NCBI RefSeq assembly: GCF_034008635.1
Contig: NZ_CP125378.1
Location: 6,076,501 to 6,140,500, forward strand
Origin: Pseudomonas sp. P8_229
Lineage (GTDB): Bacteria; Pseudomonadota; Gammaproteobacteria; Pseudomonadales; Pseudomonadaceae
Direction of reading: 5' to 3'
DNA: 64,000 nt
Numbering within the stretch: position 1 is the first letter of the stretch; each line of letters opens with the position of its first letter. Below are positions 37,644 through 54,106 of the stretch, in pieces. The translations under genes were made by a program, and so were the position numbers. Below the pieces are notes generated by a model. The model was not told the origin of the DNA and ran no database searches. It saw only the letters and a program-made list of their open reading frames with translations.

Positions 37644-37662
37644 AACTAAACGGCTATTTAGT
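37644..37662. promoter_or_regulatory. Inverted repeat upstream of the cupin gene
   Basis: ACTAAA and TTTAGT flank CGGCTA. Read on the minus strand the site is AAATAGCCGTTTAGTT, which differs by one base insertion from AAATAGCCGTTTTAGTT at 62877-62893 upstream of the orphan kinase. It may be an operator. Confidence 0.4.
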
Positions 37663-38185: not shown

Positions 38186-38202
38186 ACTGAACGGAACTCA
38201 GT
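38186..38202 (+). promoter_or_regulatory. RsmA/RsmE-type hairpin 1 in the ebo leader
   Basis: ACTGA and TCAGT form a five-base-pair stem closing the loop ACGGAAC. An ACGGA in a small loop is the core of CsrA/RsmA recognition sites. It stands 25 bases upstream of the ebo start codon, next to the second hairpin. Confidence 0.6.
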
Positions 38203-38209
38203 CATCACA

Positions 38210-38228
38210 ATCAAGAGGGATGCTTGAT
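38210..38228 (+). promoter_or_regulatory. RsmA/RsmE-type hairpin 2 over the ebo ribosome binding site
   Basis: ATCAAG-AGGGATG-CTTGAT folds into a perfect six-base-pair stem with a seven-base loop. The loop contains the Shine-Dalgarno GGGA and a core ANGGAT-type RsmA motif, and the first two bases of the eboD start codon (38227-38228) lie in the stem. Binding here would block translation directly. Confidence 0.68.
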
Positions 38229-40101
38229 GAAGCACAGCCGTTGGTATCGTGCGCTCTCGAAAAAGGCGCCAGCCGAACATTTTTGGCTGTCATTGTTTTG
38301 CTTTTCAGGTCTGGTGATCGCCAGCTTCGTCTTGTTCGAACAGCAGATCCAGGATTTCCTGACTCATCTCGACCTGTACCTTCCGTCCTCCCCCACCCAG
38401 AAACTCAACCTCGCGCTGCTACTGATCGCCTTGCTGGCGCTGGATGTGGTGCTGCCCGTGCCTTCCAGTGTGGTCGCGCTACTGGCCGTGGCCATGCTGG
38501 GCAGTGTCGGCGGTTATCTGGTGATTTTCATTGGCCTGTGCCTGGGGGCCGGGTTGGGGTATGCGCTAGGGGCCGGCTATTTCCGGATGCTTTCGAGTCG
38601 CCTCGGTTTGCATCAACGCCGGCCCGGGCAACTCGGGTATCGATTGGGCACGCTGTCATTGATCTGCCTGCGCGGCGTGCCCGTGCTGGCTGAAACCTCA
38701 GTGGTGGCGGCTGGCATGCAACGTTATCCGCTACGCTCGTTCTTGCTGGTCACCACCCTGGCTAACGCCGGTCTGGCACTGGCCTACAGCGCCATTGGCG
38801 CGTTCCTCGTCGAAGAGAACGCGCTGCTGGTGACTATCCTCGCCAGTATGGTGTTGCCGGGACTGTTCATCGCCGGGTACAGCCTGTTCAAGACCTTGCG
38901 CAAGCACGGCGCCGAGCAGACGCTCCGCGGACGTTTCGAGGTCAGTTACGACTACCCGGTGGTGTTCACCGATCATCTGTTCGATCCGTCCAATGCCTGC
39001 CTGCATCAGCAACTCACCGCTCGGCAAAGTGGCCGCGTGACCGTACTGGTGTTCGCCGATGAACAACTGCTGAAAAGCGCCCCGCAATTGCTGGAACAGA
39101 TCGATGGCTATTTTGCTGCCTATACAGTGGATGTGCATTTGCAGGCACCGCCGATTGCCGTTCCGGCCGGTGAACTGAGCAAGGATTCACAGGTGTTACA
39201 GCAGCTCTACACCGACATGATGAGACATGGGCTGGACCGGCACTGCTATGTCCTCGCCCTCGGTGGTGGCGCTGTACTGGACTCCGTGGGCTACGCCTGT
39301 GCCACCTTCCACCGTGGCATTCGCCTGATTCGCGTGCCGAGCACCGTACTGGCCCAGAACGATGCCGGCATCGGGGTGAAAAACGGCATCAATGCCTTCG
39401 GCCAGAAGAATCTGCTCGGGACCTTCTACCCCGCCACGGCCGTGATCAATGACTTCCAGTTGCTGACCAGCCTTACCCGCCGTGACCAGATCGCCGGGCT
39501 GGCCGAGGCGGTGAAAGTCGCGCTGATCAAGGACCAGGCATTCTTCCAATGGATGGAGCAACAGGCCGACGCCCTCGCCCGCTTCGATCACCCGGCAAGC
39601 CGCTATGCGATTCGCCGCTGCGCCGAACTGCACCTGGGGCACATCACCGGTGCCGGCGACCCTTTCGAGCGCGCAAATGGGCGGCCGCTGGATTACGGAC
39701 ACTGGGCGGCGCACAAACTGGAAAACCTCAGCCACCACCGGTTGCGCCATGGCGAAGCGGTCGCCGTGGGCATGGCCCTCGACGGACTCTACGCCAATGC
39801 CCTCGGGCTTCTGAGCGATGCTGACAGTGAGCGGGTGATGAGCTTGTTGACCAAGCTCGGTTTCAACCTGAGCCCACCGGAATTGAACCTGAAAGATGTG
39901 CAAGGTCGTTCGCAGGTATTGCTCGGGTTGGAAGAGTTCCGCCAGCACCTGGGCGGACAACTTTCCATCCCGATGCTCAGCGGAATCGGCCAATCGGTAG
40001 ACCTGCATGAAATCGACGACGCGCGGATGGAGCAGGCGCTGATGCGGCTGTCTACCTGCAGCGCTGCGGCCAGCAGCCTGAGCGAGGGCTTCGCGAAATG
40101 A
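38227..40101 (+). CDS. eboD: EboD-type sugar-phosphate cyclase fused to an N-terminal VTT membrane domain
   Basis: A 624-residue fusion. Residues about 15-230 form a VTT/DedA-like (SNARE-associated) membrane domain with several hydrophobic segments. Residues about 240-600 are a 3-dehydroquinate-synthase-like cyclase: LALGGGAVLDSVGYA, PSTVLAQNDAGIGVKNGIN, the metal ligands in GLAEAVKVALI, YGHWAAHKLE and RHGEAVAVGM are kept. It is not housekeeping AroB. It is the first gene of the ebo operon and probably makes or modifies a cyclitol-type moiety at the membrane. The ATG at 38227 has GAGGG at seven bases. The VTT fusion would anchor the enzyme next to the prenyltransferase EboC. Confidence 0.85.
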   Translation: MKHSRWYRALSKKAPAEHFWLSLFCFSGLVIASFVLFEQQIQDFLTHLDLYLPSSPTQKLNLALLLIALLALDVVLPVPSSVVALLAVAMLGSVGGYLVIFIGLCLGAGLGYALGAGYFRMLSSRLGLHQRRPGQLGYRLGTLSLICLRGVPVLAETSVVAAGMQRYPLRSFLLVTTLANAGLALAYSAIGAFLVEENALLVTILASMVLPGLFIAGYSLFKTLRKHGAEQTLRGRFEVSYDYPVVFTDHLFDPSNACLHQQLTARQSGRVTVLVFADEQLLKSAPQLLEQIDGYFAAYTVDVHLQAPPIAVPAGELSKDSQVLQQLYTDMMRHGLDRHCYVLALGGGAVLDSVGYACATFHRGIRLIRVPSTVLAQNDAGIGVKNGINAFGQKNLLGTFYPATAVINDFQLLTSLTRRDQIAGLAEAVKVALIKDQAFFQWMEQQADALARFDHPASRYAIRRCAELHLGHITGAGDPFERANGRPLDYGHWAAHKLENLSHHRLRHGEAVAVGMALDGLYANALGLLSDADSERVMSLLTKLGFNLSPPELNLKDVQGRSQVLLGLEEFRQHLGGQLSIPMLSGIGQSVDLHEIDDARMEQALMRLSTCSAAASSLSEGFAK

Positions 40102-40988
40102 ACCAGACCCCGCAAAGCCTTAAAACCTGGATGACGCTGGGCCGGGTATCCAATCTGCCCACGGTCTGGACCAACACCCTGGCCGCCGCACTGCTGGCCA
40201 GCAGCGCCGGTGCACTGGCGCCGCCCTCATCGCTGGTGTGGGTTCTGCTGCTGGTCACCCTGTCGTTGCTGTATCTGGCCGGCATGTTGCTGAACGATCT
40301 ACTGGATGCAGACTGGGATCAGCAACACCACAATCCGCGGCCCATCACGCTGGGCCTGGTCAGTCGCCAACAAGTGCGCCTCGCCACGGTGTTGCTGCTG
40401 ACACTGGCCGCGGCCTCGGTACTCGGCCTGAGCCAACTGATCGATCAGCCGCATTGGCTGCTGGCCAGCGTCACGCTGTTGGTGGGCTGCATCATCGGTT
40501 ACAACGTGCTGCACAAAAGATACGCCCACAGCGTGTGGTTGATGGGCGCCTGCCGCTCGGCGCTGTACCTCACGGCAGCGGCCAGTCTGGCGGTGCCACC
40601 GGAGCCGATCTGGCTCTGCGCGATTTTGCTCGGCGTCTACATCAGCGGGCTGACTTATCTGGCCCGGCATGAGCATCACAACCAGTTGCTCAGCCGCCTG
40701 CCGTTGATCCTGATGCTGAGTCCTCTGGCCCTGGCGATCTACTCCGAGAACCTGTGGTTCTGGCCGGTGCTGTTGCTCTGGCTCGGCTGGCTGGGCTGGC
40801 ATTACTGGCACAACCTTGCCAGCCCGAAACACCGACAAGTCCGCGCCTTTATCGGTGCAGGTCTTGCGGCACTGCCACTGTTCGATGCGTTGGTGATGGC
40901 CGTGGCCAACCAACCGTTGGGCAGCCTGCTGTGTGTTCTGGTGTTTTTGCTGCTCCCACATTTCCAGCGCTGGATCAAACCGACATGA
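40098..40988 (+). CDS. eboC: EboC, UbiA-family prenyltransferase-like membrane protein
   Basis: A 296-residue membrane protein with about eight or nine hydrophobic segments. The first aspartate motif is NDLLDADWDQQ near 72-82, corresponding to the NDxxD of UbiA enzymes. The second, normally DxxxD, is weaker near the LARHEHHN loop. GRVSNLPTVWTN near 15-26 is the usual UbiA opening. It overlaps eboD and eboA by four bases each (ATGA). In ebo clusters it is thought to attach a polyprenyl group to a metabolite or carrier for export. Confidence 0.85.
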   Translation: MNQTPQSLKTWMTLGRVSNLPTVWTNTLAAALLASSAGALAPPSSLVWVLLLVTLSLLYLAGMLLNDLLDADWDQQHHNPRPITLGLVSRQQVRLATVLLLTLAAASVLGLSQLIDQPHWLLASVTLLVGCIIGYNVLHKRYAHSVWLMGACRSALYLTAAASLAVPPEPIWLCAILLGVYISGLTYLARHEHHNQLLSRLPLILMLSPLALAIYSENLWFWPVLLLWLGWLGWHYWHNLASPKHRQVRAFIGAGLAALPLFDALVMAVANQPLGSLLCVLVFLLLPHFQRWIKPT

Positions 40989-41755
40989 ACATGGACGTCA
41001 CTGCGCCGCCAACGGCGGCCCTCGGCATGCGCCACGATTGCCTTGCCGAACAGCATCAGGTGTTGACCGGGCAACTCGATGAGAACGAGCTGCACTGGTG
41101 GCGTCAGGCGCAGGCGCAACTTGCCCGCCAGCCGGACGCCAGTACCGCGTCGCTCCTGAGCGGCCAGTGCAGGCGTCATCTGCGTGATCGTGCACTGCCC
41201 GACAGTCGCTGGAACCTGATCCAGCTGGCCCGCGCCTTGTTGCTGGCGCAAGTCCTTGAGCAATCACCGCCAGTCGGGCAACGGCCTCTGCTGCGTCAGC
41301 TATTTCTGTGGGGTGACGATCAGGAAAAGGTCGCCACCCTGAAAGCCTTCGACTGGTTCGACGGTCATGGGCTGTGCGTGGAACTGGCGTTGCAGGCCGG
41401 ACGCACCAGCAACAGCCAGGTGTTTGCCGCCCTCGCCCTCGACACGCTCTACCCGTCGCGTCACTACCCGGAACGAGCCTTCCACCAACTGGTGCTGAAA
41501 GCGCTGGGCATGGGGCTCGACGTGCGACGCCTGATCGGTCTGGCGCAACGACGCAGCGTCACCCTCAATCAATTGGCCCTCGACCTGCTGGAAGAGCAAC
41601 TCGCCGCTGACCGAACGGTGTCCGCCGGCTTGCCCCTGGCGATTGCCTTCGACCAGCTCGGCCCTGTGCAACGTCAGCGACTTATCGGCCTGAACCAGCA
41701 GCGACGTTTGCCGCCGGAATGGCGCGATCACCTGACCGACACGCCATCGAACTGA
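40985..41755 (+). CDS. eboA: EboA-domain protein
   Basis: A 256-residue, mostly helical, soluble protein with no signal peptide or recognised catalytic motif. WWRQAQAQLARQ, the LTLRQ-like LLRQLFLWGDDQEKVATLKA stretch and RTSNSQVFAALALDTLYPSRHYP fit the EboA domain, whose function is unknown. Its ATG overlaps the eboC stop, and a second ATG lies two codons on. It lies between eboC and eboB, an order that differs from the alphabetical A-F order in cyanobacteria. The call relies on context as much as on sequence. Confidence 0.75.
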   Translation: MNMDVTAPPTAALGMRHDCLAEQHQVLTGQLDENELHWWRQAQAQLARQPDASTASLLSGQCRRHLRDRALPDSRWNLIQLARALLLAQVLEQSPPVGQRPLLRQLFLWGDDQEKVATLKAFDWFDGHGLCVELALQAGRTSNSQVFAALALDTLYPSRHYPERAFHQLVLKALGMGLDVRRLIGLAQRRSVTLNQLALDLLEEQLAADRTVSAGLPLAIAFDQLGPVQRQRLIGLNQQRRLPPEWRDHLTDTPSN

Positions 41756-41791
41756 TGCCCAACGACTCCTTTCCCTCAACGAGGATTCATC

Positions 41792-42676
41792 ATGCCCAAG
41801 TATTTCGACCCGCACATTCATATGGTCAGCCGCACCACTGATGACTACCAGAACATGGCCGCCGCCGGAATTACCGGGGTGATCGAGCCAGCCTTCTGGC
41901 AAGGTCAGGCCAGAACCAGTGTCGGCAGTTTCATTGATTACTTCGACACCCTGTTGGGCTGGGAGCGCTTTCGCGCCAGCATGTTTGGCATCCATCACTT
42001 CTGCACCATCGGTCTCAATCCCAAGGAGGCCAATGACTTGTCGGTGGCCAACGAGGTGCTGGAGATTCTGCCGCGTTATCTGGTGAAGGACGGCGTCGTG
42101 GCGGTCGGCGAAATCGGCTACGACGACATCACGCCCGAGGAAGATCGTTTTCTCGCGGCGCAGTTGGAGCTGGCCAGACAATTCAATCTGCCGGTGCTGG
42201 TACACACGCCGCACCGCGACAAGATCGGCGGTACCAAGCGGACGTTGGCGGTGATTCGCGAGGTGGGGATCAACGAGAGTCTGGTGATCATCGATCACCT
42301 CAATGAACTGACCCTGCCGTTGGTGCTGGACAGCGACTGCTGGCGCGGTCACTCGATCTATCCCAACACCAAAATGTCGGAACAACGGATGGTCGCCCTG
42401 CTCCAGCAATACGGCACCGAGAAAATGGTGGTCAACAGTGCTGCCGACTGGGGCATCAGCGATCCGCTCAAAGTGCCGAAAACCGGTCAGGCGATGTTGG
42501 CGGCCGGCTTCAGTGAAGCCCAGGTCGAGCAGGTGCTGTTCCACAACCCCGTCGATTTTTTCGCCCAGAGCGGCCAACTGGATAAAACCTTGGTCAGCAC
42601 CCCGCTGCCCATCGATCAGCGCCGGCAGTATCAGGAAAACTCCGCCCTGCGTGGCCAGGAACCGGTGATCAAATGA
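41792..42676 (+). CDS. eboB: EboB, TatD-like metal-dependent hydrolase
   Basis: A 294-residue amidohydrolase-fold protein. Metal-binding motifs appear in order: DPHIHM at 6-11, GEIGYDD near 110-116, VHTPHRDK near 138-145, IDHLNE near 168-173 and the final Asp in NSAADWGISDP. It is a cytoplasmic hydrolase of the TatD/urease superfamily. Its substrate in ebo clusters is unknown. The ribosome binding region has ACGAGGATTCATC ahead of the ATG, and the stop overlaps the eboE start by four bases. Confidence 0.85.
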   Translation: MPKYFDPHIHMVSRTTDDYQNMAAAGITGVIEPAFWQGQARTSVGSFIDYFDTLLGWERFRASMFGIHHFCTIGLNPKEANDLSVANEVLEILPRYLVKDGVVAVGEIGYDDITPEEDRFLAAQLELARQFNLPVLVHTPHRDKIGGTKRTLAVIREVGINESLVIIDHLNELTLPLVLDSDCWRGHSIYPNTKMSEQRMVALLQQYGTEKMVVNSAADWGISDPLKVPKTGQAMLAAGFSEAQVEQVLFHNPVDFFAQSGQLDKTLVSTPLPIDQRRQYQENSALRGQEPVIK

Positions 42677-43899
42677 ACGCCGGCAAGGGCTGGACGCCCG
42701 GACAGATCGGCTATTGCAGCAATGTGCACCCTACCCGCGACCTGGCCGGGTTGCAGTCTTCGATCGAGCAGCACTTTCAGGGCGTGCGGACCCTGCGCGG
42801 GCTGCAAGCGCAGAACAGCGGACTGTGGATCAGCGCCCTTGCCGCGTCCAGGCTGCAGCAGAAATCGGCGCGTTCGGCGTTTCTGAACCTGCTGCAACGC
42901 AGCGGACTGCGGCTGACATCGCTGAACGGTTTTCCCTACGGCCAATTTCATGACCGTGCGATAAAAGCCGAGGTCTACCTGCCCAATTGGGCCGAGCCGA
43001 AACGCCTGGCGTACAGCCTGAATCTGGCGCACATCCTCGCGCAGGCGTTGCCGCCGGATTGTCATCAAGGGGTGATCTCCACCGTGCCGCTCGGCTATGC
43101 CGCCACCTGGACCCCGACGCTGCAACAACGGGCCGAGCAGCAACTGCGCGAACTCACCGCTTCGCTGGCCCAACTGCATCGGGAAACCGGCAAGAAGATC
43201 GTGTTCTGCCTGGAGATGGAGCCGGATTGCGTGCTGGAAACCACTGACCAGGCCATCGCCTTCTTCCGCCGCTGGCAAACCACAGACCCGAACCATCCCT
43301 ATCTGGCGCTGTGCTTTGATGTCTGCCATCAGGCGGTGATGTTCGAAGACTGCTTTCAGTCGTTGGCAAAGCTGCGTCAGGCACAGGTAGCCATCGGCAA
43401 GATCCAGCTGTCCAACGCATTGATTTGTCGTCTACCTGACGACGGGCGCCGCGAACAGGTGCTCAAGACGTTGAGTGACTTCTGCGAAACCACCTACCTG
43501 CATCAAGTGAAGGCGCGCGATGCGCAGGGTCGCCTGCAGGCCTGGGCGGATCTGCCCGCCGCCCTCGTCGAATGCGCAAAACTCCCGGGGCGTTACCCCG
43601 AACTGAGGATTCATTTCCACATCCCGTTGTTCAGCGAACAGCTGTTGTTGCCCGATCTGAGCGGCAGTCAGATCGCCCTGTCGCAGACCTTCGATTTTCT
43701 CGCCAGCCACGAGGACTTTCGTCCGGTGCTGGAGGTGGAAACCTACAGCTGGGGCGTCCTGCCCGCGCAACTGCGGCCGACGACCGAGTCCGCCCAGCTT
43801 CAGGGGATCGCCGCAGAACTGAACTGGGTCGAGGACCAGTTGCGGCAACGGCGACTGCTGCAATCACAAGCACAGGAGGCGTACGCCGATGCGCTCTGA
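42673..43899 (+). CDS. eboE: EboE, xylose-isomerase-like TIM-barrel protein
   Basis: A 408-residue protein of the sugar-phosphate isomerase/AP-endonuclease 2 fold. IGYCSNVHPTRDLAGL near 13-28 is the typical EboE opening. Metal-site residues are seen in FCLEMEPDCVLETT near 177-190, CFDVCHQAV near 216-224 and the HFHIPLF strand near 315-321. The product name metabolite traffic protein EboE is used for the family. It overlaps eboB by four and eboF by eleven bases, so it is part of a single tightly packed operon. Confidence 0.87.
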   Translation: MNAGKGWTPGQIGYCSNVHPTRDLAGLQSSIEQHFQGVRTLRGLQAQNSGLWISALAASRLQQKSARSAFLNLLQRSGLRLTSLNGFPYGQFHDRAIKAEVYLPNWAEPKRLAYSLNLAHILAQALPPDCHQGVISTVPLGYAATWTPTLQQRAEQQLRELTASLAQLHRETGKKIVFCLEMEPDCVLETTDQAIAFFRRWQTTDPNHPYLALCFDVCHQAVMFEDCFQSLAKLRQAQVAIGKIQLSNALICRLPDDGRREQVLKTLSDFCETTYLHQVKARDAQGRLQAWADLPAALVECAKLPGRYPELRIHFHIPLFSEQLLLPDLSGSQIALSQTFDFLASHEDFRPVLEVETYSWGVLPAQLRPTTESAQLQGIAAELNWVEDQLRQRRLLQSQAQEAYADAL

Positions 43900-45334
43900 C
43901 CCTGCGCGTCAACCACTGCTGCTGATCAACGTGGTCGGGTTGACGCCGTCGTTGCTTGGAGAAGCGACGCCGCACATCAATGCCCTGCTGAAAGTCGCAA
44001 AAATGGCCAGCCTGCAACCGGTGTTTCCGGCCGTCACATCGTCGGTGCAAGCCTCGATTCTCACCGGGCGTCCACCGTCCGAGCACGGCATCGTCGGCAA
44101 TGGCTGGTATTTTCGCGACCAGGCTGAAGTGCGTTTCTGGCTGCAACCCAATGCGCTGATTCAGGGCGAAAAGGTCTGGGAGACGCTCAAACGCGAGTTG
44201 CCCGGGTTTCGCTGCAGCCAGTTGTTCTGGTGGTACAACATGTACGCCGACGTGGATGCTGCCATCACCCCGCGCCCTCACTACCCGGCCGATGGCCGGA
44301 AAATGTTCGGTCTGTATTCGTCACCGGCTGCGCTGCACGAGCGTATCGAGCAACTGATTGGCGAGTTTCCGTTTCCGGGCTTCTGGGGCCCGGCGGCCGG
44401 CATTGCCTCGAGCCGCTGGATCGTCGATTGCGCCATCGCCGAATTTCAGCTCAATCGGCCCGACCTGCAATTGATCTACCTGCCGCATCTCGACTACAGC
44501 CTTCAGCGCGTGGGGCCGGAGCATCCGTCGATTGCCGACGAGGTTCGGGCCATCGACAAGGAAGTCGGCCGCCTGCTGGCGTTTGCCGAAGAACAGGGCG
44601 CGGCGGTGATGTTGCTGTCGGAATACGGGATCGAAGCGGTCAATCAATCGGTTTCAATCAACCGCCTGCTGCGCTCGGAAGGTTTGCTGGAGGTGCGCCA
44701 ATCGCTGACCTGGGAACTGCTCGACTCCGGCGCCAGTGCAGCGTTTGCCGTGGCCGATCATCAGATCGCGCATGTCTACGTGAAACGGACCCAGGACATT
44801 CCCCGCGTCAAAGCGCTGCTGCAGCGCCAGCCCGGTATCGAGCAGGTGCTGGACAAGGCCGAACAGCGGGCGTTTCAGCTGGATCACCCGCGCAGCGGCG
44901 AGCTGGTGGCCGTGGCCGCAGCCGGTTACTGGTTCGATTACTACTACTGGTTCGATGATCGCAAGGCGCCCGACTTTGCCCGCACCGTGGACATCCACCG
45001 CAAGCCCGGCTACGACCCGCTGGAACTGTTCATCGACCCGGCCATTCGTTTCCCGAAATTGAGAGTCGCGCGGCGCCTGCTGCAGAAGAAACTCGGCTTT
45101 CGCTACTACATGGACCTGATTCCACTGGACACCGGACTGGTCCGTGGCAGTCACGGTCGCCTGCCCGAGCGCGAGGAAACCGGCCCGCTGTTCATCACCA
45201 ATTGCGATCTGCCGTTGCCGCAAACCCTTGCGGCAACGGCAGTGAAACAACTGCTCCTTCAGCATTTTCTGGGGCACTCATACACCCACTCGGCCAATGC
45301 CAAGGAGCTTCCATGCGGCGAGCCATTTCTATAA
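43889..45334 (+). CDS. eboF: EboF, alkaline-phosphatase/nucleotide-pyrophosphatase-like protein
   Basis: A 481-residue protein of the type I phosphodiesterase/alkaline phosphatase superfamily. The nucleophile region FPAVTSSVQASILTGRPPSEHG near 46-67 (given here as FPAVTSSVQASI and LTGRPPSEHG) carries the threonine or serine of the family. YLPHLDYSLQRVGPEHPS near 191-208 supplies metal ligands, and LSEYGIEAV a third set. It has no signal peptide and is probably cytoplasmic. It is the last ebo gene. Its 3' end overlaps the start of the next gene, encoding a CxxCH protein, by 22 bases, tying the two blocks together. Confidence 0.85.
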   Translation: MRSDPARQPLLLINVVGLTPSLLGEATPHINALLKVAKMASLQPVFPAVTSSVQASILTGRPPSEHGIVGNGWYFRDQAEVRFWLQPNALIQGEKVWETLKRELPGFRCSQLFWWYNMYADVDAAITPRPHYPADGRKMFGLYSSPAALHERIEQLIGEFPFPGFWGPAAGIASSRWIVDCAIAEFQLNRPDLQLIYLPHLDYSLQRVGPEHPSIADEVRAIDKEVGRLLAFAEEQGAAVMLLSEYGIEAVNQSVSINRLLRSEGLLEVRQSLTWELLDSGASAAFAVADHQIAHVYVKRTQDIPRVKALLQRQPGIEQVLDKAEQRAFQLDHPRSGELVAVAAAGYWFDYYYWFDDRKAPDFARTVDIHRKPGYDPLELFIDPAIRFPKLRVARRLLQKKLGFRYYMDLIPLDTGLVRGSHGRLPEREETGPLFITNCDLPLPQTLAATAVKQLLLQHFLGHSYTHSANAKELPCGEPFL

Positions 45335-46455
45335 CTGTTCTCAGTGCACTGGCCGGTTTGGCTCAGGCACAGGACACCACCCCTTTCGATTGCAGCCAAT
45401 TTCTGAAGTTTGGGACTGACATCACCAAGACCCGGGCTGCGTTCGAGCAGAATCCCGAGACCATGGCCTGGAACTGGTTCGTCTGTCTGAACCAGCCCAG
45501 CGCCGCCCAGACCAGTAATCGGGTTTGGGAAACGATGAAGCCTTCGGACCAGGTCTACCTGCCCAATGGTGCTGCGCCCGGCCCTTATGCCAGTAACGCG
45601 CCGCTCCCGGCCGCCGTGGAGACGCAAGCCAAAGCCCAGGGTATGGACCTGTCCCGCGCGTTCCATAACATCAATGCCACCCAACAGGTCGATGGTCTGG
45701 CGCTGCATATGGGCGGCGCCGTGCCGGCGGCGCAAAAAGGCAACCCCGTACGCTTTCAACTGCTGATGGGGCAAGACACGTTCGACTACATCGTGCAGCG
45801 TCAGGTCTACAACATGAATGGTCAGGCCGCACTGCCCGACAACCTTCACTTCCCGGCGACTGCCTGGGAGTTGAAAGCCGCCTGGCTGTGGATCGGCTCG
45901 GACACGACCTACCGACAAACTCTGGTCAACGACGGCTACTACGTAGCCCAGGCCTATTTCCAGCAGGACGACGGCACTTATCAGGTTGGCTATGCGGCAT
46001 TGAGCGGGCTGCATGTCGTCAACAAACTGGACGACAGCTGGGTGTGGACCACCTTCGAAAACATCAACAACAGCAAATACACCGTGACCAACGCGCCGAC
46101 ACCGACGCCGATGACCAACACCACCGGGCCGACCCCGGCCGCCAAACCGGTGAATGTCAGCTTCCAGGCGAGTAATCCGACGCTGTCGAAGTACGAATTG
46201 ATCGGAGTCGAGTACCAGCCCGTCACCCAGGTACTGGCCAACTCGCAGCTGGAATCGGCTTTCCAGAACACCTCGTCCTGCCTGGCCTGCCATGGCACCG
46301 CCGCCTACTCGAACGACAAGGGCTACTTCAATTTCGCCCTCAAGCAAGGTGGCGGCATCGTCTACCCAACCACTCCGCTGCCGGCCTCCGACTTCGCAGG
46401 CTACAAAAAACTGGACTTTGTCTGGTCGCTGAAACGCGCCCAGTGGCAACGCTAA
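45313..46455 (+). CDS. Exported CxxCH (c-heme-type) protein, copy 1
   Basis: A 380-residue protein with a signal peptide (about 1-20, MRRAISI to LAQAQ) and one CLACH motif near residue 320, which could bind a c-type heme in the periplasm. The rest is not a standard small cytochrome. It is a large domain with segments such as LSGLHVVNKLDDSWVWTTFE that recur in the protein at 49842-51134 (LVGLHIITKANGYPQWIWST), so the two are paralogues. The start at 45313 has AAGGAG upstream and lies inside the end of eboF. It is followed after ten bases by a VioB-like gene. Possible role: periplasmic oxidase or electron-transfer step on an exported product. Confidence 0.7.
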   Translation: MRRAISITVLSALAGLAQAQDTTPFDCSQFLKFGTDITKTRAAFEQNPETMAWNWFVCLNQPSAAQTSNRVWETMKPSDQVYLPNGAAPGPYASNAPLPAAVETQAKAQGMDLSRAFHNINATQQVDGLALHMGGAVPAAQKGNPVRFQLLMGQDTFDYIVQRQVYNMNGQAALPDNLHFPATAWELKAAWLWIGSDTTYRQTLVNDGYYVAQAYFQQDDGTYQVGYAALSGLHVVNKLDDSWVWTTFENINNSKYTVTNAPTPTPMTNTTGPTPAAKPVNVSFQASNPTLSKYELIGVEYQPVTQVLANSQLESAFQNTSSCLACHGTAAYSNDKGYFNFALKQGGGIVYPTTPLPASDFAGYKKLDFVWSLKRAQWQR

Positions 46456-46465
46456 GGAGCATGAC

Positions 46466-48835
46466 ATGAGCGTATTGAACTTCCCCCGCATCTACCTCAA
46501 CGGCCATATGTTCTGGAACCCGCCGACGGCCAACAACAATGATGTGCTGCCGCTCTATGACGCGGTGAAGATGGATATCAACTGGCCGTTTACCAGCTAC
46601 TACGACATCACGCAGCAGAACGCTCCCACCACCCTGATGCCCTGGATCATTTCACCCGTGCAGCAGAATAATCTGCCGCCCTATGTGCAGCAGGTTCCGA
46701 CCAACGGAAGCCCAAACACCTTCCCGTTCATACCCGCCGAATGGGACCTGTTTGGCGACAACGCCTGCGGGACGGTGAGTTACCAGAGTACCCGCTCGAC
46801 CATTATTGGCGGCGAGTTGCAGGCCAACACCTACATTGCTCAGGACGCGCTGGTCGGCAGGGACTTCCAGCTGCTCGGCAATCCCTTTGGCAGTCAGAGC
46901 CCGACGGCCGCCCGCTTCGTCGATATCAGCCCGTGGCAGAACACCTTCACGGCGCTGTACTTCGACAAGCTGCAGCTGGGGGATGCCACCTGTGGCCTGA
47001 CCCTGAACCGTCAATACCGGATGCTCGACCGCTTCCTGACGTTCAATTGGGCCGGTGACTTTGGCGGTCTGGCGTATGTCACCACCACCTGGCAGACCTG
47101 TTTTCCCCGGGACAATCTGGAATGGGTCATCGGCGATTCCGTCCTGCTGAGTAATCTCCAGCAACAGATGGAGGCTCAAAACGCTCAGGGCCTGATGTTC
47201 AGGTTCGCCACGTACCTCACCTGTTACGACAGGAACGGTGTGTTCAACGACTTCCCGTACATCAACACCCGCAACAATGACCCATCGGCGCTGGCCCGTA
47301 TGACAGCGATGTATCAAAAGGGGCTGGACAACGTTTCCGATATTTTCTTCAACCCCGCCTACAACCGTACCGTAGCGACCCTGGGTCTATGGTTCGACCA
47401 CGAATACCCCACGGCGCCCGCCGGCCCGCGTCTGGTCACCGACCAGAAGATCATGGTCACTCGCCCCGGCATGTCTCAGCCGACAAGCACCAATCTGGGT
47501 GTGACATCGGCGCAGATCACCAACAACACGCTGTCGCTGGATCTGGCCAACACATTTCCGTTCTATCCGCTGGACAAGAACGCCGATGTCCTGACTGCCG
47601 AGAAGTTCCAGGCCGGCGACTATAAGCTGGGCGTATCGCAGAACGGGAATTTCGTGCCGGTGGTCGACATCGGTTTCGATCAGTACCAACAGTCGGCATT
47701 CGACAAGCGCTCGGGCCTGCTGGACCTACCCCTCAGCGCAGCGCAAACGGCCACCTTGCAATCCGGCCCGCTGGAACTGCAGCAACAGACTGCATCAGGC
47801 CCCGTGAAAGCCGCCACTCAGCAAGTGTGGACTGCGGAGGTAGTAGAGAGTGGCACCTTCGTCGACGTGAACGATCGCAAGACGCTGAACATCATGGTGC
47901 AGAAAAATGGTCAACCGGCCGCCAACACCACACTCTGGGTGGTGGAATACGGCAACCCTTACAACGTGACCACCAGCGACTACTACCTGACGTTCAGAAA
48001 CAACCCCGACTTCACGCTGTTCTACGACAACGCAGACCGCAACAAAAACACCGCCCACCTGCCACAGTTCAAGGGCACGGCACCTGTAGCGAACTACCTG
48101 GCCACCGGCAGCGGTCGTCGACTGGTCAATCTGGAAGCCAAAGACAAACCGGTGGGCGTTCCGGTCAGTTATCAGTCATTCATGAATGGCTCAAGTAAAC
48201 CGATCACGGTCCCCCTGACCCCTTGCCTGGAATTCGACGCCGGCGTCTACGTCAGCGGAACGCTGGATAACGATCAGACGGTGGATTACTCCTACGTCGC
48301 CACCACCACCGACGCCAATGGCATCGCCCAGGTGAGTTTCAAGGCTCTGGCCCCGGGTTTCCCTACGCTGCGCTTCATCGTCAAGGAAGGCACCAGCGAC
48401 CCGGTCATCCCCTTCAGCTTCGCGCTCACAAACGCCCAGACCGACTTCCTCGCGCCGCTGCGCGTCCTGCCTCTGGACCTGCCGCTGCAACAGGACTTCA
48501 TCAACTTCTGGAACACCATCTACAAGGAAAAGGACGCCCCAACGCAGGTGTGGGAAGGGTTTATCTACCCACGCATCCTGAAGACGTTCTATTACCTGTA
48601 CCCGATCATGAACAAGTTCATGCCGCTCAACTCCCAGAAGCGAGTGGAAGGCGCCGTCGACCAGTTGATCCGGCTGATCAGCAAGGAGTACCAGGAAGAA
48701 AGCACCCTCGCGATGCCCATCACCCGCGACCTGTCGCAAAGCCGGCGCGCCGTGCTGGAGTTGTGGGCGCAGAAACTGGTCAAGCGCAACTTCCCGCCCA
48801 TGCAACTCAAGATGAGTGATTACGACGACCTCTGA
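46466..48835 (+). CDS. VioB/RebD N-terminal-like protein, copy 1
   Basis: A 789-residue protein without signal peptide. It opens MSVLNFPRIYLNGHMFWN with PTANNND following. From memory this matches the start of Chromobacterium VioB (MSILDFPRI, G, N.PTAN), the iminophenylpyruvate/indole dimer synthase of violacein biosynthesis. Other shared points are TLGLWFDHEYPTAPAGPRLV, LLDLPL and the late FYYLYPIMNKF ... MPITRDLS segment. The C-terminal ferritin-like domain of VioB is absent; the protein ends after that segment. An Ig-like insert lies around residues 470-660. AAGGAG stands six bases before the ATG. The function is unknown. A structural or binding role in making an aromatic dimer is inferred. 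Confidence 0.68.
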   Translation: MSVLNFPRIYLNGHMFWNPPTANNNDVLPLYDAVKMDINWPFTSYYDITQQNAPTTLMPWIISPVQQNNLPPYVQQVPTNGSPNTFPFIPAEWDLFGDNACGTVSYQSTRSTIIGGELQANTYIAQDALVGRDFQLLGNPFGSQSPTAARFVDISPWQNTFTALYFDKLQLGDATCGLTLNRQYRMLDRFLTFNWAGDFGGLAYVTTTWQTCFPRDNLEWVIGDSVLLSNLQQQMEAQNAQGLMFRFATYLTCYDRNGVFNDFPYINTRNNDPSALARMTAMYQKGLDNVSDIFFNPAYNRTVATLGLWFDHEYPTAPAGPRLVTDQKIMVTRPGMSQPTSTNLGVTSAQITNNTLSLDLANTFPFYPLDKNADVLTAEKFQAGDYKLGVSQNGNFVPVVDIGFDQYQQSAFDKRSGLLDLPLSAAQTATLQSGPLELQQQTASGPVKAATQQVWTAEVVESGTFVDVNDRKTLNIMVQKNGQPAANTTLWVVEYGNPYNVTTSDYYLTFRNNPDFTLFYDNADRNKNTAHLPQFKGTAPVANYLATGSGRRLVNLEAKDKPVGVPVSYQSFMNGSSKPITVPLTPCLEFDAGVYVSGTLDNDQTVDYSYVATTTDANGIAQVSFKALAPGFPTLRFIVKEGTSDPVIPFSFALTNAQTDFLAPLRVLPLDLPLQQDFINFWNTIYKEKDAPTQVWEGFIYPRILKTFYYLYPIMNKFMPLNSQKRVEGAVDQLIRLISKEYQEESTLAMPITRDLSQSRRAVLELWAQKLVKRNFPPMQLKMSDYDDL

Positions 48836-48856
48836 TCCATCAGGAAAGATGAGCCG

Positions 48857-48878
48857 CTGCGGGCGTTCAGGCCCGCAG
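48857..48878 (+). other. Intercistronic hairpin
   Basis: CTGCGGGC and GCCCGCAG form a perfect eight-base-pair stem around GTTCAG in the 66-base gap after the first VioB-like gene. There is no T-tract, so it is more likely an mRNA-stability or attenuation element than a terminator. Confidence 0.55.
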
Positions 48879-48901
48879 TGCGCCTTGCCAGGGAGTGACC
48901 C

Positions 48902-49822
48902 ATGAACGTCAGCCTCTTGAACCGTCTGTTGCTGTTGATCCTGTTGTTCTGTCCATCCGCATTCGCCCAGGACAGCGGCGCCGTCTACTTCACCAATGGC
49001 GTACACAACACGCTGGGGTGCAATGAACAGAACGGCAACTGCATCGCCAAACGCAATCCGGGTGAGCCTTCCGATCCGTTCTTCCCGGCATTCTGGATCA
49101 GCAACTGGACCCTGTACCGGGTGATGCACAACTACGAAAACAACCCGCCGCCCTACAGCAACCCGCCAACGACCCTGACGCCTGCGGACTACACCGTCTC
49201 CCACGGGACCAGCTACTACGACACAACCTACATCCCGCCGGATGGCGACGGCTTCGGCGCCATGATGGAGCACTACGAGAAATACTGTCTGCCGATCTTC
49301 CCGATCAAGAACAACAACTACACCTGCTCGTTCGTCTCCCTTGGCAACAAGGCGTACTTCCTGACGTATCCGCAAGACCGCCCGAAAGACATGCCGGCCT
49401 GCTGCATGTTTTCCCCGATGAATCATCCGCCACGGCAGGACTTCATCGAGCACCTGCCCTACAGCGCCGAGCGCAGTAAAAACCTCGATGGCAGCGTGCA
49501 GGCCTACGCCCTGGATCTTGATTCGCCGCAAGGTCCGATCCTGTTCGGCTATGCCTTCTACAAAAAAATGTCGGGACAACCGCCCTACCGGCCACCGCAA
49601 TCGTTCTTCTTTTCAGGCGATACCAGCGTCGCCAACGCACCGATCGTCAGCCAGAACTACACCGATTTCCGCATCGCCAAACCGAACCCGAAACAGACGT
49701 GGGCGCAGGTCGCCGCCATGTGCCCGTCGAATCCGCCACCCTGCCAGCTGTTCGAGCCACCAGAGTCGCAGAGCAATGGCCACAAGGCGCAGTGGAACAA
49801 ACTCATGCAGCGTAAACCGTGA
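48902..49822 (+). CDS. Exported cysteine-rich protein of unknown function
   Basis: A 306-residue protein with a clear signal peptide (MNVSLLNRLLLLILLFCPSA, cleaved near AFAQ). The mature part has eight cysteines, including a CC pair in MPACCMF, which suggests disulfides in the periplasm or outside. It is rich in Pro, Tyr and Asn and has no family I recognise. It lies between the two CxxCH/VioB-like pairs, with 66 and 19-base gaps, so it is co-transcribed with them. It may be a partner or substrate of the exported CxxCH proteins. Confidence 0.72.
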   Translation: MNVSLLNRLLLLILLFCPSAFAQDSGAVYFTNGVHNTLGCNEQNGNCIAKRNPGEPSDPFFPAFWISNWTLYRVMHNYENNPPPYSNPPTTLTPADYTVSHGTSYYDTTYIPPDGDGFGAMMEHYEKYCLPIFPIKNNNYTCSFVSLGNKAYFLTYPQDRPKDMPACCMFSPMNHPPRQDFIEHLPYSAERSKNLDGSVQAYALDLDSPQGPILFGYAFYKKMSGQPPYRPPQSFFFSGDTSVANAPIVSQNYTDFRIAKPNPKQTWAQVAAMCPSNPPPCQLFEPPESQSNGHKAQWNKLMQRKP

Positions 49823-49841
49823 TCAACGACGAAGGATCGCC

Positions 49842-51134
49842 ATGAAAACCACACTCCGTTATTCCGTGATGTTGCTGGGTCTGGCCAGCCTGCCGGTGCT
49901 GGCCAGGGAACAAGCCATGCCGTCGGTGCAGGCCAGCCAGTTGAACTGCCAGCCGCCCAGTACGGCACCGGCCGCCACGGCCGGACAGGATCAGTTCGAT
50001 CAATACAGCTGGCAGATGTTCATCGCCCTGAGCTGGCCGGCAAAGAGCGGGCAGCGCGGCAATCCCGACTGCACCCAACAGCCCGGTGCGGCCGGCTACA
50101 CCGTCTGGCAGACCTACAAGACCGTAGGCGAAATCTTTCTGCCGAACGCCACCAATCCGGGGCCGTGGAATTCCCCGCAGATCGCAAAAAGTTTCAACAT
50201 CATCAACATCGCCTCTTTGAAAAACAGCGCTCAGGTGAATGCCGTCGATCAGGCGGTCGGCGGCTGGTTGATCGATCAGGCGAAAAACCCGACCTATTAC
50301 GACATTTCGGCCAACGAGACCTCCTACAACTACATCGTGGGCAACAACTTCTATAACGCCGACGTCGTTTCCAAAGCCAACAACATCCAATTCCCCTGGG
50401 GCGTCATCGAGATCAAATCGAGCTGGCGCATCCTCACCTCCAATGACAACGCCAGCCGTTACCTGACCATGCTCGCCCGGGTGGCGACTTTCAATGATCA
50501 GGGCCAGAAGAACGGTGTCACCGAGGCGTATCTGGGGCTGGTCGGCCTGCACATCATCACCAAGGCCAACGGCTATCCGCAGTGGATCTGGTCGACATTT
50601 GAACAGGTCGACAACGTTCCGCCCAAGGCACTGGTAAACGGCAAATGGGTCGATCAACCAGTCGCGGGCACGGCCTATTCCTACTTCAACGCCGCCGCAC
50701 CCGCCGCGTCCCTCAACCAGTCACCGTGCGACTGGCAGACTCAGGGCCCGCATCAGGTCTGCGTTCCCAAGCCCGGCACCACGTTCCAGACCCCGAACCC
50801 GCTGAACCGGGTCACCCCGATCGCCGACATCACGAACCAGATCAACGCCAGTTACCAGACCGACCCGGGGTTGCAAAAAAGCGTGTTGAAGTACTACCAG
50901 CTCATCACCACCCAGCGCCCGCTGATGCCTGACAACCCGGGCAATCCGCTGGGTCAGCCGACGCCGGCACTCTCGGCCAATGTGACCATGGAAAGCTACA
51001 TCCAGCCCAACAGCAGCTGCATGAACTGCCATTCCATGGCGACGCCGGTCAAGAGTCCTTACAAGTCCGACTACTCCTATCTGTTCAAATTCGCCAATTC
51101 GCCGCTCGGCAAAACCATCAAGGACGGGAAATAA
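49842..51134 (+). CDS. Exported CxxCH (c-heme-type) protein, copy 2
   Basis: A 430-residue protein with a signal peptide (about 1-21, MKTTLRYSVMLLGLASLPVLA) and one CMNCH motif near residue 398. It is a paralogue of the protein at 45313-46455: both have a W-x-WF/F-x-AL start region, an aromatic-rich centre and a late CxxCH. An extended loop with CDWQTQGPHQVC may form a disulfide. The start at 49842 has GAAGGA upstream, so a longer reading starting inside the previous gene was rejected. It is followed four bases later by the second VioB-like gene. Confidence 0.7.
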   Translation: MKTTLRYSVMLLGLASLPVLAREQAMPSVQASQLNCQPPSTAPAATAGQDQFDQYSWQMFIALSWPAKSGQRGNPDCTQQPGAAGYTVWQTYKTVGEIFLPNATNPGPWNSPQIAKSFNIINIASLKNSAQVNAVDQAVGGWLIDQAKNPTYYDISANETSYNYIVGNNFYNADVVSKANNIQFPWGVIEIKSSWRILTSNDNASRYLTMLARVATFNDQGQKNGVTEAYLGLVGLHIITKANGYPQWIWSTFEQVDNVPPKALVNGKWVDQPVAGTAYSYFNAAAPAASLNQSPCDWQTQGPHQVCVPKPGTTFQTPNPLNRVTPIADITNQINASYQTDPGLQKSVLKYYQLITTQRPLMPDNPGNPLGQPTPALSANVTMESYIQPNSSCMNCHSMATPVKSPYKSDYSYLFKFANSPLGKTIKDGK

Positions 51135-51137
51135 ATC

Positions 51138-52955
51138 ATGAGCATCCTCAATGGCCCGCGACTGAATTTCTGGGGTGGTATCCGCACGGATGTCAGCCTG
51201 CCGAACAACTCACCGACCATGCAGTACAACGGCATCAAGAACTGGCCGATCTTCGACCTGACTACCTCGACCCTCGCACCGACTGCCCAGTCCTACACCG
51301 ATGATCAGTTGAACAGCATGATCAATGCGCCCACGGGCGACTACTACACCGCCGGCGGCTGGAATCATTACGGGCAGCATGTCGTCGACATGCAAAACGC
51401 GCTGATCAGTTCTCAGGGCAGCCCGGGCAGCGTCAGTACCACTGGGGATATGGTGGGCCAGCCGGTCTATCTGCTGGGTTCTGTGGACCCGGTGACCGGA
51501 CAAGGGCCGGTATCGGGCCCGATGATGGTGGACCTCGACCCCACCTCGACAACCACCACCCAGATATTTGTCGGTGGTCTGCAAATCGGTGGCAGTGACA
51601 ATATCCAATTGCTGATTCGCGCCAATACGGTTTGCAGCAGTCTGGATCTCGGCATGCGGGTGCTGCAGCCACTACCGAAGGAGATGGATGCACCCGGCTC
51701 TTGCCGTATCAGTGGCACATTCCAGCTGACCTTTGCGCTGAGCAGTATTGTCAGTTGGAACCAGAACAGCAGCGGTTTGCGATCGATCATCCAGGCACCG
51801 GGGGCCACCGGTATCGTCCTGCGCTTCGTGATGTTCGAAATGTGTCCGACGATGACCACTCCCCAGTTGCAAGCCGATTATGCCGCCGGCAGAGACACCC
51901 CGAACCCGAGCATTGGCCGGGTCATCGGTACATTGGCTCCGGCTTTCGCAAATGAGCCGCTGAACTGTCAGGTGGGCCGTCAGATCGTCAATCAGGACAC
52001 GGGCGGCACCGGCTACGCAGACCTGAGCAACCCGGCAATGCTGAGCGTCGACATGGTCAACATCATTCCGAAAGAGACGTTCAGGACCGTCAGGGATGAC
52101 ATCACCAGCCCAATCGGACCTAACGGGAATTACGGTCCTGTGACCCTGGCAGCCGGTACGACCACCCTGACCACACTCGATCCGACCAGCAGTCCACTGC
52201 TCGATTATTACGTGTATGGCGGCATTGTCGATCTGCCGCTCGATACAACTCAACAGTCTGCGGTCAGATCCTCAGCGTTGGCCATCAACGCCCCCGGCAC
52301 GGTCGCCGGGACTACGTTGCAGGCAACAGAGTCCGTCTATCGGATCTATGCAGATCAACGCAGTGTCTATACCGAGGACTACCCACAGGGACTGTCGATT
52401 ACGCTGCAGGTCCGGTATCTGGGTGCTGCGGTGACCAGGACAACTGAAATCGATCTCACCGCCGCGCCCTCGGGACCGTATTACACGCAACAGCGGTACT
52501 GCGACTTCCTTTATTTCCCCCCTGCCCTGACGGTGAGCCCCGGTCAGTTGTCCGTCACGTTCTCCGTCAACGTAAAACCCGCAGCGGCGCCCCTCGCCGG
52601 TTTCGTCGCCCTGACCTACACCGTCAACGGTCAGGACAGCGGCACCTATTTCACCAACTTCCGCAAATACGCCCAGACCGACTTCGGCATCCCCAAAGGC
52701 ACCACCATCACATGGGAACTGATGTATCCGAATGTCCTGCGTTTTCACTACCTGGCCTTCCCCGCCATGTCTCGCTACATCCCGCTGAACCAGCCCGACG
52801 CGATCATGGGCGCGAAGAACCCGATCCTCGCCCGAACCTCGGATGCCTATAAAGGCACCACGCTGTTCATGCCGGTTGTGCGGTCGATGTCGCCCTCTCA
52901 GCGGGCGTTGTTGCGGGCCTATCTCACGGGCGAGCCGTGGCAACCGCCGCTGTGA
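51138..52955 (+). CDS. VioB/RebD N-terminal-like protein, copy 2
   Basis: A 605-residue protein without signal peptide, paralogous to the 789-residue protein. It opens MSILNGPRLNFWGG. MVDLDPTSTTTTQIFVGGL resembles the VioB stretch VDSDP...QIYAG, and GGIVDLPLDT resembles VioB GIVDLPL. It ends in WELMYPNVLRFHYLAFPAMS with MPVVRSMSPSQRA, equivalent to the MPSTRELS region of VioB. It also lacks the C-terminal ferritin-like domain. Being shorter, it represents the core domain without the Ig-like insert. It directly follows its CxxCH partner gene, repeating the pattern of copy 1. Confidence 0.68.
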   Translation: MSILNGPRLNFWGGIRTDVSLPNNSPTMQYNGIKNWPIFDLTTSTLAPTAQSYTDDQLNSMINAPTGDYYTAGGWNHYGQHVVDMQNALISSQGSPGSVSTTGDMVGQPVYLLGSVDPVTGQGPVSGPMMVDLDPTSTTTTQIFVGGLQIGGSDNIQLLIRANTVCSSLDLGMRVLQPLPKEMDAPGSCRISGTFQLTFALSSIVSWNQNSSGLRSIIQAPGATGIVLRFVMFEMCPTMTTPQLQADYAAGRDTPNPSIGRVIGTLAPAFANEPLNCQVGRQIVNQDTGGTGYADLSNPAMLSVDMVNIIPKETFRTVRDDITSPIGPNGNYGPVTLAAGTTTLTTLDPTSSPLLDYYVYGGIVDLPLDTTQQSAVRSSALAINAPGTVAGTTLQATESVYRIYADQRSVYTEDYPQGLSITLQVRYLGAAVTRTTEIDLTAAPSGPYYTQQRYCDFLYFPPALTVSPGQLSVTFSVNVKPAAAPLAGFVALTYTVNGQDSGTYFTNFRKYAQTDFGIPKGTTITWELMYPNVLRFHYLAFPAMSRYIPLNQPDAIMGAKNPILARTSDAYKGTTLFMPVVRSMSPSQRALLRAYLTGEPWQPPL

Positions 52956-52984
52956 TCGCGCCCCCCGCCCATGGAGAGAAATCT

Positions 52985-54034
52985 ATGACTGTTGATATTC
53001 CTGCGCACCCACGCGAAACCTTGCGCCCCAGCACAATCATCGCCGAAGGTTTGCTGAACCCACGCGGCGCCTGCGTGCAGGCCGATGGCAGCCTGCTGCT
53101 GGTCGAAGCCGGTTCAGGCCTGCCAGACCAGACGTTCAGCGGTCGCATCAGCCGACTACGACCGGACCCGCTCAAGCACGGCGCCTGGCTCGCCCGCGAA
53201 ACCCTGGCACAAGGTTTTCGCGCCATGAACATGCAGGCCCGCATGCTGCGCGATGAAATCATGGGGCTGTCGGACATCGCCTGTGGTGACGGGCGTTGCC
53301 TGGTCAGCCAGACCGATTATGTCGAGGGCTCAAAACTGCTGGACCTGCAATACACCCCGCCCGAGCCGGTCTTCCACAGCCGGGGCAATCTGAATGCGCT
53401 GTGTTATCACCCGACCCGCCGCAGTTGGCTGGCGGTCAAACCCGATACCAATCAGTTGGTGGAATTCAGCACCGGCGAAGTTGAGCAGGTTCTGGTGCAG
53501 TTGCCCGAACTGGACAGGGGCCAGGAAGCCGTCCCCGTCACGTTGGTGTATGAACCGGCGACGGACGCCATACTGATCAGCCTGTTCTCCGGAGAGCTGC
53601 AAAGCGACCCGGGCCGCAAAGGCATCGATTTTGCCGATCAGGCCGGCCAGGTAATCCGGGTCTGGCCCGACACCGGCCGGATCGAAGTGCTGATTCGCGG
53701 CCTGCAGCTGCCCACCGGGCTGGCGCTGTGTCCGCAAGGGAACGTGCTGGTGCTGGAACTCTGCAGCCACTTGCAACAGCCGTTGCCGCCTGACTGGAAT
53801 GGCGAGCCCATGCATGGCGGCTTCAGCCGGTTCAGCGGGCGACTGTTGAGTTGCAACCTGCAAACCGCCGAGGTGACTGTGCTTGCCCGCGACCTCGATA
53901 CCCCGTCCAACCTGTGCCTGTTGCAGGATGCGGTGCTGGTGAGCGAAGGCATGGGGTTGACAGGTCGGCCGCTGCCCACCCCTGACAATAAAGTGGTTGC
54001 GTTGAGCGGCAGGTTGCGTCGAGTACAGCTCTGA
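52985..54034 (+). CDS. ScyD/ScyE-like beta-propeller protein
   Basis: A 349-residue NHL/SMP-30-type propeller without signal peptide. IIAEGLLNPRGACVQADGSLLLVEAGSGL (read as IIAEGLLNPRGA and DGSLLLVEAGSGL) is close to the opening of ScyD/ScyE proteins of the scytonemin cluster. Further blades are RVWPDTGRIEVLIRGLQLPT and TVLARDLDTPSNLCL. The start at 52985 has GGAGAG upstream. It lies 29 bases after the second VioB-like gene and ends the ebo-linked block. ScyD/ScyE have unclear roles, possibly in monomer handling, and a lactonase-like activity is an alternative. Confidence 0.65.
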   Translation: MTVDIPAHPRETLRPSTIIAEGLLNPRGACVQADGSLLLVEAGSGLPDQTFSGRISRLRPDPLKHGAWLARETLAQGFRAMNMQARMLRDEIMGLSDIACGDGRCLVSQTDYVEGSKLLDLQYTPPEPVFHSRGNLNALCYHPTRRSWLAVKPDTNQLVEFSTGEVEQVLVQLPELDRGQEAVPVTLVYEPATDAILISLFSGELQSDPGRKGIDFADQAGQVIRVWPDTGRIEVLIRGLQLPTGLALCPQGNVLVLELCSHLQQPLPPDWNGEPMHGGFSRFSGRLLSCNLQTAEVTVLARDLDTPSNLCLLQDAVLVSEGMGLTGRPLPTPDNKVVALSGRLRRVQL

Positions 54035-54043
54035 AAACAGATG

Positions 54044-54076
54044 AAAAAAGGTGCGGCCCTGTCAAGGACGCACCTT
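54044..54076 (-). terminator. Intrinsic terminator of the AraC-type gene
   Basis: AAGGTGCG and CGCACCTT form an eight-base-pair stem. On the minus strand the stem is followed by six T residues. It lies just beyond the stop of the regulator gene. Confidence 0.75.
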
Positions 54077-54106
54077 CTGTGTATTGGGTGAGCACAATCT
54101 TGCCGA

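Follow-up and report, generated by a model that had tools for sequence, protein, structure and literature searches.

Within the window, by which we mean the whole 64,000-nucleotide stretch of Pseudomonas sp. P8_229 that was analysed (contig NZ_CP125378.1), the + strand of positions 38227–54034 carries twelve genes in the order eboD-C-A-B-E-F, Cx1, Vio1, Cys, Cx2, Vio2 and Scy, with no gap wider than 66 bases. Comparison of gene and protein divergence between strains showed that ebo and Scy have apparently had one shared history, and that Cx1–Vio1 and Cx2–Vio2 behave as co-inherited pairs that appear to have been jointly replaced in some strains. We read the unit, with roughly even confidence, as an EDB-type operon in which one or two exchangeable Cx–Vio cassettes sit on an export chassis (eboD-C-A-B-E-F plus Scy), and which would work in the way set out below. 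The paired behaviour of the cassettes was the most surprising result, and it suggests that the Cx–Vio pairs determine what the exported product is. The operon is very probably of the published EDB (anti-grazing) cluster type, and the exported product is probably worm-repelling.

The comparisons drew on 149 Pseudomonas genomes (the window's own included), 398 Pseudomonadota genomes and named genome contigs, the first and the last of these samples overlapping in part. The scan of named contigs yielded 59 distinct loci from the best 80 of 87 stretches encoding a relative, and records of the window itself or very close to it were not among them; after removal of two cyanobacterial loci and three displaced or split pieces (L134, L136 and L138), 54 loci remained. 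Protein distances and third-codon-position residuals were analysed for 34 of the 54, using complete genes only, with short EboD, Cx2 and Vio2 removed and EboB omitted, and a seven-gene distance comparison covered 45.

Protein-distance correlations across the 34 loci revealed three groups, namely ebo with Scy (0.86–0.97), Cx1 with Vio1 (0.83) and Cys-Cx2-Vio2 (0.89–0.95). The correlation between Vio1 and ebo was only 0.23–0.40, and Cx1 also correlated with the Cys-Cx2-Vio2 group (0.68–0.76). The 45 loci gave a similar picture, with lower values for EboB (0.60–0.69 against EboC, EboE, EboF and Scy). When the ebo mean was subtracted from third-position divergence, the residuals correlated at 0.73 for Cx1–Vio1 and 0.64 for Cx2–Vio2, and at 0.00–0.07 across the pairs. 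Adjacency as the cause of this co-inheritance was rejected, since neighbouring genes that do not form a pair gave 0.13 (Vio1–Cys), 0.33 (Cys–Cx2) and 0.18 (Vio2–Scy).

Individual strains pointed to joint replacement. Among 77 close locus pairs, which are not independent of one another, a drop of at least 12 points below ebo was observed 43 times for Vio1, 9 times for Vio2, 7 times for Cx1, 5 times for Cx2 and 0–2 times for the other genes; 14 of the 43 pairs with a Vio1 drop also had Cx1 lower by at least 8 points, and in all 9 with a Vio2 drop Cx2 had dropped too. Between L083 and L086, third-position identity was 84–90% in ten genes, compared with 68% in Cx1 and 64% in Vio1, and between L112 and L113 it was 68–88% in ten genes, compared with 65% in Cx2 and 53% in Vio2. 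In L083/L120, one breakpoint fell about 130 nt into Cx1 and the other at the border of Vio1 and Cys, with some better-matching windows between them; in L112/L113, they fell about 270 nt into Cx2 and about 300 nt into Scy. Together, the joint drops and the breakpoints indicate that a Cx gene can be exchanged along with its own Vio in a chassis that is otherwise kept.

The linkage of the cassettes to ebo was evident from their occurrence. Of the 149 Pseudomonas genomes, 17 had Vio1, and EboE occurred in exactly these. The 16 loci other than the window's comprised 11 of the twelve-gene form and 5 of a nine-gene form that is missing Cys, Cx2 and Vio2 (in one, L028, the EboD match covers only 65%). 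The initial annotation had described an ebo D-C-A-B-E-F run continued, with no gap over about 66 bases, by a six-gene block; this was confirmed in position and strand, and the repetition of the identical order in 16 other genomes excludes a chance arrangement. Among the best 80 of 87 named stretches, ebo genes lay upstream of Vio1 in 54 of 54 loci, of which 40 had twelve genes and 10 had nine, 3 were ended by a contig edge and 1 was rearranged (L122); incomplete genes occurred chiefly in L118 and L130. Four of the 54 stand under other names: Azomonas agilis, Pantoea sp. Cy-639, a metagenome-assembled genome (MAG) named Paucimonas, and Rheinheimera faecalis. The 398 Pseudomonadota genomes contained matches to the Vio profile in 2, EboE in 3 and the Cx profile in 18, which indicates that Vio accompanies ebo, that ebo is possible without Vio (genome G332) and that Cx belongs to a wider family. 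Orthologues of Cx1 (E <= 2.2e-181) were confined to the 17 genomes in the Pseudomonas sample, and 21 more genomes had distant paralogues only. The expected co-occurrence of the downstream genes with ebo thus stood for Vio1, never seen without ebo in the samples searched, but not for the Cx family, which is widespread without it.

The unit is located at many different places, as the flanking open reading frames (ORFs) formed 26 groups among 47 loci on the 5' side and 31 among 49 on the 3' side. The AraC, cupin and kinase genes adjoining it in the window were absent from all 16 other Pseudomonas loci, and among the named loci listed an AraC gene was present only in L080, further away. The ebo genes of G332 (L071, 6796–13011) are arranged A-B-D-E-F-C; their EboD is shorter (381 aa), and neither Vio nor Cx adjoins them. 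A Cx relative of this genome is located elsewhere (L070), in a gene run that also contains a GMC oxidoreductase. Pseudomonas sp. FEN (L134, 1–5200, and L122) has Cys-Cx2-Vio2 and an eboC-like gene apart from the cluster, and the match to eboC within its cluster covers only 8%, indicating a rearranged unit.

Homologues of eboA, B, C, D, E and F are all present and contiguous in the window. EboC (40098..40988), a UbiA-type prenyltransferase (PF01040), matches NF035940 only below its cut-off (87 bits; cut-off 250), EboA (40985..41755) matches the EboA domain NF035938 (128 bits; cut-off 50), EboB (41792..42676) is a TatD-type hydrolase (PF01026), EboE (42673..43899) is a TIM barrel (NF035939, 408 bits; cut-off 250) and EboF (43889..45334) is of phosphodiesterase/pyrophosphatase type (PF01663, E 1e-61). 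For EboD (38227), EboA (40985), Cx1 (45313) and Cx2 (49842), an ATG inside a longer ORF was chosen as the start. With these starts, D/C, C/A and B/E overlap by 4 bases each, E/F by 11, F/Cx1 by 22 and Vio2/Scy by 19, and the gaps are 36 (A–B), 10 (Cx1–Vio1), 66 (Vio1–Cys), 19 (Cys–Cx2) and 3 (Cx2–Vio2). The 3 terminator-like + strand sites within 38227–54034 include no intergenic one, in a scan that performed at chance level (16 found versus 15.5 expected), and an Rfam search of 36000–56000 gave no match.

The leader of eboD suggests translational control. RsmA/CsrA targets typically carry two ANGGA motifs, one at the ribosome-binding site and the other in the loop of a hairpin. In the window, ACGGA stands between ACTGA and TCAGT at 38186..38202 (+), a possible RsmA-binding hairpin that was also seen in the multi-locus alignment, and CAAG-AGGGATG-CTTG at 38212..38226 (+) overlaps the eboD ribosome-binding site. 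The consensus search used 48 leaders; the alignment dropped L118 (start codon misplaced) and added L131 and L133. ANGGA was present at the ribosome-binding site in 49/49 loci and about 32 nt 5' of the start codon in 47/49. A stem of at least 4 bp flanked the upstream motif in 42 of the 47, compared with 12.4 expected from shuffled flanks, and its letters vary between loci. The double arrangement was found at eboD in 41/47 loci, versus 0–2 loci at each of 11 other genes. The eboD leader thus resembles an RsmA/CsrA target in its motif pattern, and this RsmA-like character agrees with the GacS control of EDB described in PMC4406715, which presents strain PA23 as being without EDB homologues.

EboD (38227..40101) joins an N-terminal VTT (DedA-type) membrane domain to a sugar-phosphate-cyclase-type (DHQS) domain (PF01761, PF24621, NF004852). 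The VTT match (PF09335, residues 79–193) scored 44.8 bits against a gathering cut-off of 33.9, and residues 139–200 weakly matched the undecaprenyl phosphate transporter UptA (E 0.0065). Proteins of the DedA type act as flippases for lipid carriers. EboD may therefore combine a carrier-synthesis enzyme with a flippase-type domain, which fits the lipid carrier for ebo export proposed by Klicki and colleagues, as described in PMC6282210. For the question of how ebo proteins transport small molecules, the fusion of a cyclitol synthase to a VTT domain offers a concrete, removable part.

Vio1 (46466..48835; 789 aa) and Vio2 (51138..52955; 605 aa) are stand-alone proteins of the VioB N-terminal type. 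The VioB family model TIGR04492 matched only residues 1–176 of Vio1 (E 9e-8) and 1–154 of Vio2 (E 2e-4, with an alignment in agreement), far below its cut-off. In an hhalign comparison, a 19-sequence Vio profile aligned with a cyanobacterial VioB/StaD-type protein (L137) at 99.2%, residues 1–779 of Vio corresponding to 1–664; the ferritin-like domain PF12902 at residues 684–921 of that protein has no counterpart in Vio1 or Vio2. No His was conserved in at least 25 of 26 Vio1 sequences, and Cys101 was conserved in 26/26 Vio1 but not in Vio2. No secretion-type N-terminus was recognised by eye in either protein. Searches of Vio1 against PDB sequences and folds gave no clear relative (AlphaFold model pLDDT 83), and Vio2 had no match among PDB sequences. 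Since both proteins consist of the VioB N-terminal part without the ferritin-like domain, VioB-type dimerisation is unlikely, and VioB-type catalysis, which the initial annotation had implied, was dropped as the preferred explanation. These N-modules are better read as putative binding or scaffold proteins than as dimerases. Literature searches on VioB, ScyE and ebo showed, among the titles listed, none linking ebo with VioB, the main EDB papers lying outside this search and the other searches having been built for other questions. Full-length VioB/StaD-type genes were observed in two cyanobacterial MAGs, Scytonematopsis contorta (L137, 8116–19089) and Richelia sp. UBA3308 (L135, 4429–9665), the former also with an amine oxidase and, by eye, genes resembling FAD monooxygenases and P450s; both are possible indolocarbazole-type clusters.

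Cx1 (45313..46455) and its paralogue Cx2 (49842..51134) each have one CxxCH motif and, by eye, a secretion-type N-terminus, as does Cys (48902..49822), a protein of 306 aa with 9 Cys residues, one of them within the signal peptide, and no Pfam or NCBIfam match. CxxCH was present in 53/53 Cx1 of the named loci (best 80 of 87 stretches) and invariant across a 50-member Cx alignment, and one member had 1196 relatives at E <= 1e-5. Pfam gave no match better than E 0.04 among the 50 members, NCBIfam gave no convincing match for Cx1 or Cx2, and the P460 match was weak at the sequence level. Fold prediction gave a P460-like structure, and Cx1 and Cx2 would have a P460-like heme site; that they are periplasmic heme proteins is plausible from the conserved motif and this fold. 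For the large CxxCH family this offers a fold that can be tested, and it places the family near oxidoreductases, with which relatives occur in gene runs. In three Pseudomonas runs (L149, 4773–8928; L151, 2107–6162; L148, 2102–6188), a Cx-family protein, a small protein (FAD-SLDH-like in L151, below cut-off) and a GMC oxidoreductase (Pfam-checked in L149 only) form what looks like an undescribed dehydrogenase complex, and in L150 (3907–9207; Pseudomonas) a Cx-family gene lies next but one to a tyrosinase-domain gene. Scy (52937..54034), a ScyD/ScyE-related protein, scored 49 bits with the ScyE family model NF033206, below its cut-off of 80, and no secretion-type N-terminus was seen by eye in the window or 16 relatives, unlike ScyE as described in PMC6282210.

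These results lead us to the following working for the operon. Gac/Rsm would control translation of the first gene through the double-ANGGA leader, a conserved pattern to which RsmA may bind. The cytosolic step, in which an aromatic and probably tryptophan-derived precursor is held or shaped, may fall to Vio1, Vio2 and Scy, since they have no secretion-type N-termini. A prenylated cyclitol-type carrier would be the product of EboD and EboC, and the VTT domain, as a relative of lipid-carrier flippases, may help to move carrier and precursor over the inner membrane. In the periplasm, Cx1 and Cx2 would oxidise the precursor at their predicted heme site to a cell-associated, nematode-deterring product. 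Each Cx would partner its own Vio and the pair would set product specificity, and recombination between strains would exchange the pairs, as their co-inheritance and some joint replacements suggest. Product chemistry, heme content, specificity and flippase action are what we infer for this operon. More tentatively, and as a doubtful rather than a favoured extension, the unit may represent a Gac/Rsm-controlled ebo exporter with a cyclitol-synthase-fused flippase-type domain and interchangeable P460-like/VioB N-module pairs; these would be oxidative units of a new kind, and recombining them would alter the anti-grazer product from strain to strain.

Several observations weigh against parts of this working. 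The distances of ebo and Cx1+Vio1 correlated at r 0.41 in the 45 loci, a value matched in 0/2000 permutations, so Cx1+Vio1 is loosely, not wholly, uncoupled from ebo; Vio1 also diverges alone, given that just 14 of its 43 drops had a Cx1 drop; and the wide presence of the Cx family without ebo means that it is not exclusive to ebo. EboD is without the VTT domain in L131 and L133 (435 and 412 aa), and in L122 it was matched in its C-terminal part only. The longer RsmA consensus CANGGANG occurred in 0/48 leaders and the RNA folding energy of four leaders was no better than that of shuffles, so the leader argument draws on motif position and stem counts.

It is rather improbable, in our judgement, that the ebo half alone makes the active molecule, a prenylated cyclitol, with the downstream block only decorating or storing it and the indoles found in E. 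coli being tryptophan shunt products. The transposon hits named as edible in the citing paper PMC6282210 are eboA, eboD and eboE, ebo exists without the block (G332, L071), and in other ebo clusters the UbiA attaches a farnesyl group to 8-HQA according to PMC9235831; however, ebo never occurred without Vio1 in the Pseudomonas sample (17/17), so the block is not optional there, and the accumulation of the same cytoplasmic monomer in all Nostoc ebo mutants, as reported in PMC6282210, argues for transport. The Cx–Vio genes could instead encode variable recognition or surface proteins that bind and use ebo for lipid anchoring, swapping being an escape from grazers or phages. We consider this unlikely, since Vio1 and Vio2 have no secretion-type N-terminus and are homologous to a biosynthetic enzyme, CxxCH is invariant in the Cx alignment and Cx relatives lie in runs with oxidoreductases.

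Least probable, and to our mind only a slight prospect, is that Vio1 and Vio2 are true VioB-type imine dimer synthases and that the locus makes a violacein-like bis-indole. The profile match extends over nearly the whole N-terminal part of the cyanobacterial protein; VioB has heme b and catalase activity and had no crystal structure as of 2021 (as stated in PMC9705886), so its catalytic seat is not known; and the Cys101 of Vio1 could be a ligand, although it is absent in Vio2. Against this stand the missing ferritin-like counterpart, the lack of a conserved His in Vio1, the absence of a recognised VioA-type oxidase from the cluster in Pfam/NCBIfam scans, and the monomeric nature of the products named in the review PMC9655573. 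The exporting operon with exchangeable Cx–Vio cassettes remains our preferred reading, and the initial annotation, which had proposed an EDB-like locus for an indole-type product finished by periplasmic heme proteins, was partly supported: the Vio1–ebo linkage, the EDB connection and the indole type stood and the heme-protein step is plausible, and a VioB-like working and Cx exclusivity did not stand. New from the sequence are the nine- and twelve-gene forms, ferritin-less Vio, the Cx family, the EboD VTT domain, the eboD leader and the paired cassettes. From the paired, exchangeable Cx–Vio genes it can be seen which genes act in concert, and they are indicated as the part that gives specificity to an anti-grazing chemistry, one found in 17 of the 149 Pseudomonas genomes sampled.

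Compared with known systems, the operon is closest in description to EDB of Pseudomonas fluorescens NZI7, reported as a full ebo cluster with non-ebo ORFs carrying signal peptides (PMC6282210); the window has the same composition, its signal peptides being judged by eye. EDB is further described as being under GacS control (PMC4406715), with which the RsmA-like eboD leader agrees, and as giving an anti-grazing factor that is not in the supernatant (PMC6282210), poorly diffusible or cell-associated (PMC5736907). The review PMC9655573, citing Zhou 2022, lists as products of EDB in E. coli two isoindole compounds (untested there) and indole-3-aldehyde and indolyl-oxoacetamide, both moderate repellents, in agreement with an indole-type product. 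No NZI7 locus was among the best 80 of 87 named stretches; EDB is known here by description, and the Vio, Cx, VTT, leader and cassette features are those described here. Vio shares about 660 residues of homologous N-terminal part with VioB/StaD/RebD, and differs in having neither the ferritin-like C-terminal domain nor a conserved His. Cx resembles cytochrome P460/cytochrome c'-beta in predicted fold and, by eye, in a C-terminal CxxCH, after which comes an aromatic-rich stretch with F-x-F or x-x-F at its end, but is about twice the size, with no convincing sequence-level match. As in the ebo and scytonemin cluster of Nostoc punctiforme described in PMC6282210, ebo is linked to a ScyD/E-related gene, the product would be of indole type and export would precede periplasmic oxidation; unlike that cluster, the window operon has no recognised scyABC and a Scy without a signal peptide, and it has Cx and Vio proteins instead and an EboD fused to a VTT domain.

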